Assembly (NCBI RefSeq): GCF_024802625.1
Contig: NZ_CP103371.1
Span: 930,001 to 994,000 of the forward strand
Direction: 5' to 3'
Source of the DNA: Massilia sp. H6
Lineage (GTDB): Bacteria > Pseudomonadota > Gammaproteobacteria > Burkholderiales > Burkholderiaceae_D
Length of the DNA stretch: 64,000 nt
Position numbers and translations under genes: made by a program. The notes under the pieces are model-generated. The model worked only from the letters and a program-made list of their open reading frames with translations. It was not told where the DNA came from and did no database searches. Below, in pieces: positions 19,799-21,143 of this stretch; position 1 is the stretch's first letter, and each line of letters starts with the position of its first letter.

Positions 19799-19815
19799 CG
19801 CACCACGAAGGTGCG
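19799..19815. promoter_or_regulatory. Candidate NtrC binding site
   Basis: CGCACC-N5-GGTGCG is a palindrome matching the NtrC consensus TGCACC-N5-GGTGCA except at the two outermost bases. It lies about 150 bp upstream of the sigma-54 promoter at 19949, a normal enhancer distance. Only one good site was seen; NtrC enhancers usually have two. Confidence 0.55.
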
Positions 19816-19948
19816 TCCGCTGGCCGCGGTGGTGCGTGGCACTGCGGCACATGGCGCCGCAAGTGTTTGCTGGTTATTCGTATTGCACATGGGGTAGATG
19901 ACTGAGAAATCAACACCTTCCCGGGCGCGCGCCTCCCCATTTTGCCTC

Positions 19949-19964
19949 TGGCACGCATCGTGCT
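19949..19964 (+). promoter_or_regulatory. Sigma-54 promoter for torF-glnK-amtB
   Basis: TGGCACG-CATC-GTGCT matches the sigma-54 consensus TGGCACG-N4-TTGCW with a single substitution. The invariant GG and GC are correctly spaced. The predicted start is near 19975, giving a leader of about 64 nt before the porin gene. Confidence 0.75.
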
Positions 19965-20038
19965 AAAGGGAAGTGAAGCGTGCTGCAAGTGCATTGTAAA
20001 TCGCAACCGAGTCTACCGTTGAACATAAGGGGAAAAGC

Positions 20039-20785
20039 ATGAAACGCAGCATACCGACCGCAGCAGCCACCTGGGCCGCCCTGGCGCTGGCAAGCGTCAC
20101 GGCCAACGCGCAGCAAGCTGCTCCTGACGCAGTGCAGCAACACCAGCTCAGCTACAACGCTGCCATCACCAGCGACTACCGCTATCGCGGCCTGTCGCAG
20201 ACCAGCTTCGATCCGGCGCTGCAAGGCGGCGCCGACTACGTGCACGGCCCAACCGGCTGGTATGTGGGCACCTGGCTCTCCACCATCAAGTGGACGAAGG
20301 ATCTTGGCGGCGACGGCAGCATCGAATGGGATATCTACGGCGGCCGCCGCGGCCAGCTCGGCGCCTCCGTCACCTATGACCTCGGCGGCCTGTACTACCT
20401 GTATCCGTCGAACGGCCTGGGCCCGAGCGCCAACACCTTCGAGCTCTACGGGCGGCTCGGCGTCGGTCCGGCCTACATCAAGTATTCGCAGTCGACGACC
20501 AACCTGTTCGGCACCGCCAACAGCAAGGGCAGTGGCTATCTCGACCTTGGCGCTGATCTTGACGTGGGCAACGGCTTCATCCTGAACCTGCATGCCGGCC
20601 GCCAGAAAGTGCGTCACAACAGCCAGTTTTCCTACTCCGACTACAAGCTGGGCGTGAGTAAGGACCTCGGCGTGGCCACGGTCTCGCTGGCCTGGATCAA
20701 GGCCGATACCGGCGCTTACCTGAACCCGCAAGGCAAGAACCTCGGCAAGTCCGGCGCGATTCTCACCGTGTCCAAAACCTTCTGA
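20039..20785 (+). CDS. TorF family putative porin
   Basis: This 248-residue outer-membrane beta-barrel protein has a signal peptide ending at VTANAQQA. Alternating aromatic/Gly strands follow, including [11 protein letters not shown] and [10 protein letters not shown], with a C-terminal Phe (SKTF) required for barrel insertion. The N-terminal [13 protein letters not shown] block is the hallmark of the TIGR02001/TorF group. It is the first gene of a likely operon with glnK and amtB and lies 64 nt behind a sigma-54 promoter. It may therefore admit nitrogenous solutes under nitrogen limitation; that function is inferred from context. SD AAGGGG precedes the ATG. Confidence 0.85.
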
Positions 20786-20804
20786 TCGATTAAGAGGCAA
20801 TGCC

Positions 20805-21143
20805 ATGAAGATGATTACCGCCATTATCAAACCGTTCAAGCTGGACGAAGTGCGCGAAGCGCTGTCGGAGATCAACGTGCAGGGCATGACGGTGACCGAA
20901 GTGAAGGGTTTCGGGCGCCAGAAAGGCCATACCGAGCTCTACCGCGGCGCCGAATACGTGGTCGACTTTCTTCCAAAAATCAAGATCGAGGCGGCCGTGG
21001 ACGATGCCTTGGTCGAGCAGGTGATCGACGCCATCCAGGGTGCGGCCCGCACCGGCAAGATCGGCGATGGCAAGATTTTCGTGGCCGACCTGAACCAGGC
21101 CATCCGTATCCGTACCGGCGAGACCGGCAACGACGCACTGTAA
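20805..21143 (+). CDS. glnK: P-II nitrogen regulator GlnK
   Basis: This 112-residue trimeric signalling protein carries Tyr51 in the T-loop motif [11 protein letters not shown], the site uridylylated by GlnD. The C-terminal part has the [12 protein letters not shown]-loop for ATP/2-oxoglutarate binding. The gene is 19 bp after torF and 10 bp before amtB. Linkage to amtB identifies it as the GlnK-type paralogue that blocks the ammonium channel when nitrogen is plentiful. Confidence 0.97.

Follow-up and report, generated by a model that had tools for sequence, protein, structure and literature searches.

In Massilia sp. H6, a gene for a putative outer-membrane barrel protein of the TorF family stands at the head of a torF-glnK-amtB unit, which we read as a scavenging operon under NtrC and sigma-54 control in which TorF would serve as a pore for small monovalent cations. 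To this combined statement, weighted to its core of a regulated pore, we assign a probability of roughly 0.55. New in this analysis are the connection of Herbaspirillum NlmA to the barrels of the TorF family, and the observation that this family is associated both with AmtB and with Kdp.

Organization of the torF-glnK-amtB locus

The window, i.e. the whole stretch of 64,000 nucleotides that was analysed, carries the following features around torF:

16964-19426, minus strand: nrdJ, B12-dependent ribonucleotide reductase, divergent from torF, with its start 34 bp past ubiK
19461-19766, minus strand: ubiK, ubiquinone biosynthesis accessory factor, divergent neighbour of torF (PF04380, E 2.8e-25)
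19799-19815, no strand assigned: NtrC-type palindrome CGCACC-ACGAA-GGTGCG, presumed enhancer, read directly and conserved
19949-19964, plus strand: candidate sigma-54 -24/-12 promoter TGGCACGCATCGTGCT, score 15.8, with the ATG of torF 90 bp downstream
19975, plus strand: expected transcription start, about 12 bp past the -12 GC, from promoter geometry
20039-20785, plus strand: torF, an nlmA-type gene for a putative porin of the Gcw_chp/TorF family, 248 aa (TIGR02001, PF09694)
20805-21143, plus strand: glnK (P-II; NF007946, 182.6 bits against a cut-off of 181; PF00543)
21154-22554, plus strand: amtB, ammonium transporter (TIGR00836, 432.6 bits against a cut-off of 343.3; PF00909)
22569-22588, plus strand: weak hairpin AAGGCGCC-TGCG-GGCGCCTT 3' of amtB, a possible terminator read by eye

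The torF product belongs to its family by both profiles, with 184.6 bits against TIGR02001 (cut-off 47.15, E 2.2e-54) and 147.4 bits against the 24 of PF09694 (E 8.7e-43). Profile searches of the own genome returned it as the sole TIGR02001 match, together with one Amt match and no KdpA match, and among 40 named loci its closest relative is that of Telluria aromaticivorans (87% protein identity). The ubiK product matched NF047835 with an E-value of 7.6e-20, but at 71 bits stayed below the model cut-off of 100. A scan of the sequence left the hairpin unflagged. Directly downstream of amtB lies a glutamate-cysteine ligase gene of the TIGR02049 (gshA_ferroox) type (22688-23989, plus strand).

Candidate sigma-54 promoter and NtrC site

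The first-pass annotation had pointed to TGGCACG-CATC-GTGCT at 19949 as a sigma-54 site and to CGCACC-N5-GGTGCG at 19799 as an NtrC site, and both are read directly at these positions. The former has its GG at 19950-51 and its GC at 19962-63; the palindrome starts 150 bp further upstream than this site, and 33 bp separate it from position 19766, where the ubiK start codon has its last base. The weights of the sigma-54 matrix approximate the published consensus, and the NtrC consensus is approximate too, which makes absolute scores rough and leaves contrasts between groups of loci unaffected. Within the window, TGGCACGN5TGCT occurs once exactly and five times with one mismatch (2.34 expected; reached in 8 of 100 shuffles), the palindrome once exactly and three times with one mismatch (0.83 expected; reached in 5 of 100 shuffles), and the matrix gives 12 hits of at least 12. 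Since each site by itself is thus near chance in the window and weak evidence, conservation was used as the evidence. A sigma-70 scan of 19000-24000 found no promoter-like site, and beside 19799 no second NtrC-like site was found, the next best matching 7 of 12 positions. Elsewhere in the window, a second NtrC-like palindrome (CGCACCCTGACGGTGCA, 42092-42108, L316) carries one mismatch and has no sigma-54 score of at least 12 within 350 bp; a sigma-54-like site at 53605 was dropped, being inside an ORF.

In profile searches of the own genome, NtrC is present with 674 bits, at one place over the cut-off, and RpoN with 445 bits. The motif GCACC-N5-GGTGC occurs 34 times per strand in this genome, against 5 for the reversed control, and among the first 15 of these 34 places (L309-L323, two of which overlap) a sigma-54 score of at least 14 within 350 bp was found only at torF and at glnA, the latter identified by eye from an ORF translation that reads as glutamine synthetase. 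The combination of a palindrome with a strong candidate sigma-54 site at torF and glnA is the architecture expected of NtrC targets. The window further contains a large ORF (52581-54950, plus strand) that by eye resembles an NtrY-type sensor kinase, followed after 160 bp by a receiver-domain match to the NtrC profile (55110-55490), and the two are possibly a second nitrogen two-component pair.

Conservation of promoter and gene order

Loci of torF were collected from three samples, comprising 200 genomes of the order (128 with TIGR02001), 97 genomes of the family (86 with TIGR02001) and the 40 named loci. The order sample was drawn from 150 listed matches of a longer total, among them both halves of one G011 gene, and 119 of the 120 remaining listed places were taken, leaving out the second G011 fragment; the family sample consists of 30 loci plus 60 listed places, with weaker ones left, and leans to strong matches. 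One locus (L173) was dropped for having no match to the window protein. Linkage was defined as a glnK downstream of torF on the same strand at up to 2500 bp, one linked locus having it at 1686 bp. Dropping rows with less than 150 bp upstream or with a duplicate upstream end reduced 279 rows to 271, made up of 194 linked loci, 68 unlinked loci and 9 of undetermined linkage. An earlier estimate from match lists, in which 83 of 150 torF places had a listed Amt and the window itself fell below the cut of the Amt list, was replaced by reading the loci.

Within 350 bp upstream of torF, 188 of the 194 linked loci reach a sigma-54 score of at least 11, whereas shuffled sequences do so 8.8 times on average and the reverse strand 4 times; among the 68 unlinked loci there are 7 (shuffles 2.4). 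The NtrC palindrome, at 10 or more of 12 positions, accompanied 132/194 linked loci (shuffles 3.7) versus 6/68 unlinked loci (shuffles 1.4), and a divergent ubiK lay within 700 bp in 169/194 versus 0/68. The same contrasts are seen in the order sample alone, both for sigma-54 (96/102 linked, 6/36 unlinked) and for divergent ubiK (89/102 and 0/36), and there the glnK start falls at most 110 bp past the torF stop in 94 of the 102 linked loci. A good sigma-54 site is missing in six linked loci, including L089, L110, L158 and L030, and amtB was found in 191 of the 279 rows. The sigma-54/NtrC arrangement that had been proposed ahead of torF-glnK-amtB is thus conserved far beyond chance in glnK-linked loci, and the conservation check of promoter and gene order in Burkholderiales proposed along with it came out in its favour. 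Four torF genes away from glnK (L170, L172, L138 and L145) have a strong sigma-54 site (14.7-18.3) 69-161 bp upstream, and judging by these sites they are probably still nitrogen-regulated though apart from glnK-amtB.

At the level of the class, TIGR02001 occurs in 93 of 185 genomes, and among 29 loci chosen as best matches, which form no random sample, glnK adjoins torF in 17, with a divergent ubiK too in 13 of those 17. Because torF is found beside glnK in these class-level loci, the torF-glnK unit predates the order. Not every genome has it: of the 200 in the order sample, 180 have Amt and 128 have TorF, and many genomes have amt without torF.

Possible control of ubiK-nrdJ

From the position of the palindrome close to the ubiK start, the first-pass annotation had suggested that NtrC might also affect ubiK-nrdJ. 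The distance is short in other loci as well, with at most 45 bp in 44 of 104, and the divergent placement of ubiK at most linked torF loci would fit a shared site. However, the best minus-strand sigma-54 score facing ubiK in the window is 7.2, and the 4 of 194 loci that reach 11 on the reverse strand stand against 8.8 for forward shuffles, so that no sigma-54 site faces ubiK above chance. Spacing from the NtrC site also varies more towards the ubiK start (mean 78, sd 48) than towards the sigma-54 site (mean 117, sd 30). Control of both transcription units by this one site therefore found no positive support and seems to us highly improbable; activation of ubiK by NtrC is unlikely from the arrangement of sites, while interference of the NtrC site with ubiK is possible.

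The nlmA-glnK-amtB operon of Herbaspirillum and expression in relatives

The reference for the nlmA(orf1)-glnK-amtB operon of Herbaspirillum seropedicae is reportedly Noindorf 2006. This operon has been described as NtrC-dependent and strongly induced by nitrogen limitation, with an amtB::lacZ fusion up 21-fold and NlmA detected in membrane extracts, although the protein was placed 'most probably in the periplasm'; the available portion of that report gives NlmA neither a family nor a TorF/Gcw_chp barrel label (PMC3023670). The primer GlnKF1, described there as a 5' flank primer of glnK (PMC3023670), matches Herbaspirillum torF in two loci (L267 and L274) at 18 of 18 positions, 152 bp ahead of the torF stop, and GlnKR1 matches just past glnK with one mismatch in L266, L268 and L274, the remaining Herbaspirillum loci matching more weakly (3-4 mismatches, or none). 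Because of the full primer match in two loci, we assign nlmA to the TorF family, an assignment tied by primer sequence to other Herbaspirillum loci rather than to the sequence of strain SmR1 itself.

All three genes occur in the order torF-glnK-amtB in Herbaspirillum L266, L267, L271, L272 and L274, whereas L268 and L270 have torF-glnK only, amtB not being found within the stretch examined. Sigma-54 scores range from 15.5 to 17.1 in the seven Herbaspirillum-type loci; their palindromes are weaker, the best matching 9 or 10 of 12 positions, and L271 and L272 have none of at least 9. With the same order of genes, a sigma-54 site and torF and glnK close together, the Herbaspirillum operon resembles the window, but it belongs to another genus, and the window torF is 50-54% identical to seven of the loci and 73% to one. 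The window unit is orthologous to nlmA-glnK-amtB, so that its regulatory part, previously measured under the name nlmA, is not new.

Expression data from other studies concern the same gene position. On rice roots, Hsero_0083, directly upstream of glnK, was up 15-fold, together with glnK (43-fold) and amtB (20-fold), its product being considered a candidate for plant recognition (PMC6646362). In the OM43 strain NB0046, the 'conserved hypothetical' NB46_00251, which shares a putative operon with P-II and amt, showed the largest change of the study, a rise of about 1,900-fold when neither nitrogen nor vitamins were added (PMC5120137). From its gene order we infer that NB46_00251 may be a TorF protein; in a Methylophilaceae locus (L276) torF stands with glnK. 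Porin-less glnK-amtB operons share with the window the NtrC/sigma-54 control of P-II plus Amt; in contrast to the window, Paraburkholderia phymatum is reported to have its RpoN box directly upstream of the P-II gene (PMC5979394). In the available portions of three NtrC-regulon studies (PMC5648810, PMC5491218, PMC3224663), torF goes unnamed.

The claim that torF-glnK-amtB is driven by NtrC under nitrogen limitation holds up on two sides, through the conserved sites described above and through the measurements reported for the orthologous Herbaspirillum operon (PMC3023670). By this analogy nitrogen shortage very probably turns on torF jointly with the genes for ammonium uptake, and we hold the NtrC/sigma-54 operon reading of torF-glnK-amtB with high confidence.

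torF copies away from glnK

By direct count, kdp genes lie on the same strand beside 31 of the 68 unlinked torF loci, versus none of the 194 linked ones; one kdp case (L234) is borderline, with its score at the threshold. Per sample these were 8/36 in the order sample, 18/24 in the family sample, which leans to strong matches, and 5/8 among the named loci, four of the latter being Collimonas. The arrangements include kdpC-torF-kdpD, torF-kdpA and kdpE-torF. Neighbours were scanned over mechanically called ORFs and without L259, taking in 54 of the 55 ORFs found downstream and 47 of the 48 found upstream for the 68 loci, and gave KdpD in 10/54 and KdpA in 5/54 downstream and KdpC in 10/47 upstream, while eight upstream response regulators scored best as KdpE. 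In the kdpA-bearing genomes of the order sample, 10 of 32 unlinked torF places among the matches listed lie within 8 kb of kdpA, 9 of them on the same strand.

On a FastTree phylogeny of 192 rows thinned at 70% identity, the topology of which was taken without branch supports, the kdp label is carried by 14 tips and requires at least 7 changes by parsimony, compared to 12-14 in 20 shuffles, and the nearest row to several kdp-associated copies is a glnK-linked torF. As kdp tips cluster more than shuffled labels, there would have been fewer recruitments than loci, and on this topology the kdp association reads as repeated recruitment with some shared ancestry.

No kdp gene is in view at the other 37 of the 68 unlinked copies, and the neighbours of unlinked torF further include aldehyde dehydrogenase, allophanate hydrolase (3/47 upstream), amino-acid permease (3/54 downstream) and ABC permease. 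At one locus (L139, positions 1-3251) torF adjoins an ABC permease of the taurine/nitrate type and is preceded at 156 bp by a sigma-54-like site of lower score (13.6); by its gene content this locus would be another small-solute context for torF.

Predicted fold and lining of TorF

An AlphaFold2 model of TorF, built with 53 aligned sequences, folds residues 35-247 into a barrel of 12 strands (mean pLDDT 90.6, pTM 0.83), the N-terminal 28 residues being of low confidence. Foldseek ranked VhGalP, NanC, FapF and OmpG for this model. VIA put KdgM (Z 16.8, rmsd 2.3, 164 aligned), NanC (16.5) and VhGalP (16.2) at the top as three tied folds, followed by FapF (15.2), Tsx (14.7) and OMPLA (13.9). The two comparisons of the model point to no single porin function. 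TorF is confidently predicted to be a narrow 12-stranded barrel that shares the KdgM/NanC fold, with Z 16.2-16.8 over 163-190 residues. It differs from these porins in sequence (6-12% identity, no sequence relative among PDB chains at E up to 1), and a Pfam scan at E up to 0.001 returned Gcw_chp alone, not the KdgM family. KdgM and NanC carry acidic sugars, in contrast to the acidic lining inferred for TorF. The earlier designation as a porin accordingly stands at the level of a predicted fold, and an outer-membrane pore is what TorF quite likely forms according to the model.

A protein without pore, with a structural, sensory or accessory role towards AmtB and P-II in the outer membrane, e.g. 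as a link between the envelope and the sensing of ammonium, would be compatible with the non-porin barrels FapF and OMPLA also ranking in the fold comparison. We consider it rather improbable, considering that solute porins take the top three places in the fold alignment and that a repeated link to the unrelated cation importer Kdp is hard to fit with a P-II or AmtB partnership.

The lining was taken as the more polar phase of alternating residues in each strand, without coordinates. Its net charge is -6.0 for 192 linked, -9.5 for 17 class-level linked, -6.0 for 22 kdp-associated and -5.9 for 46 other proteins, the kdp group here being an earlier hand-made set of 22 rather than the later 31. 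Residues Y47, R50, E96, D98 and E135 are invariant in A1. An acidic lining as predicted here would suit cations, yet it is a family trait, the same in every context, and so does not tell one context from another.

TIGR02001 takes its name from TorF of Shewanella oneidensis (SO4694), which is listed as an outer membrane porin of the TMAO reductase system (PMC5955497). The sole Shewanella locus examined (L279) has 34% identity and no adjoining glnK.

Proposed function of TorF

In the mechanism we propose, phosphorylated NtrC bound to 19799-19815 would, at nitrogen shortage, activate sigma-54 RNA polymerase at 19949-19964, and the resulting transcript would yield an outer-membrane barrel (TorF), a P-II sensor (GlnK) and an ammonium channel (AmtB) together. 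TorF/NlmA would let small monovalent cations through the outer membrane by way of a narrow pore lined with acidic residues and, at low supply, keep NH4+ entry at this step from limiting AmtB; the kdp-associated copies would have the same role for K+. The major porins of the lineage, e.g. Omp32, which the Foldseek comparison lists as an anion-selective porin, tend to be anion-selective, and this is a possible reason for having a cation pore.

The association of the family in genomes is with importers of cations, glnK standing beside 194 loci and kdp with 31 of the other 68. The two ions, NH4+ and K+, each carry a single positive charge and hardly differ in size, and AmtB and Kdp are their respective scarcity systems. 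Because the two ions are alike and torF is found beside both scarcity importers, a pore for monovalent cations (NH4+, K+) is favoured over one for urea or amino acids, as a tentative choice that we would not yet put at even odds. The first-pass annotation had named ammonium, urea or amino acids as candidate substrates, of which ammonium is thereby preferred; the other two gained no specific support, although some unlinked loci have allophanate hydrolase (3/47) or amino-acid permease (3/54) as neighbour. Equally provisional is the wider proposal that TorF/Gcw_chp proteins may be outer-membrane channels dedicated to such cations, which on several independent occasions came to serve the high-affinity importers AmtB and Kdp, given a preference of the hosts' ordinary porins for anions. 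Against a cation pore count the 37 of 68 unlinked copies without kdp, the other neighbours and the TMAO-linked namesake, TMAO being no such cation, as well as, by analogy, the acidic sugars carried by KdgM-like folds elsewhere.

Alternatively, TorF/NlmA may be a general porin for small solutes, made at nitrogen shortage, that lets in various nitrogen sources such as urea, amino acids and amines and does not prefer cations. Such a porin would agree with the unlinked copies that adjoin allophanate hydrolase, amino-acid permease or, at L139, the taurine/nitrate-type ABC permease, with the namesake's listing as a TMAO-system porin (PMC5955497) and with a lining that is identical across contexts. 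It fits less well with the constant partner glnK in the window and the 194 linked loci, with amtB in 191 of the 279 rows, and with kdp as the largest single class of other partner, so that we judge it unlikely, though less so than a protein without pore. The literature searched, chiefly open-access and available in part, yielded no paper that describes TorF/NlmA as a pore for ammonium or potassium or connects it with kdp, and no transport, conductance or phenotype data for the TorF family.

Implications

Ammonium and potassium are generally assumed to cross the outer membrane unhindered. That a barrel gene has stayed beside glnK-amtB within the order as well as in further families of the class, and that paralogs of it occur in kdp clusters, implies that a regulated entry through the outer membrane is worthwhile when these ions are scarce. 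A small-monovalent-cation pore would offer a testable function for the Gcw_chp family, which Pfam labels as of unknown function, and would account for the strongly nitrogen-induced genes annotated as 'membrane' or 'hypothetical' in Herbaspirillum, and in OM43 too if NB46_00251 is TorF. If true, the entry of ammonium and potassium through the outer membrane would be a regulated step instead of free diffusion.
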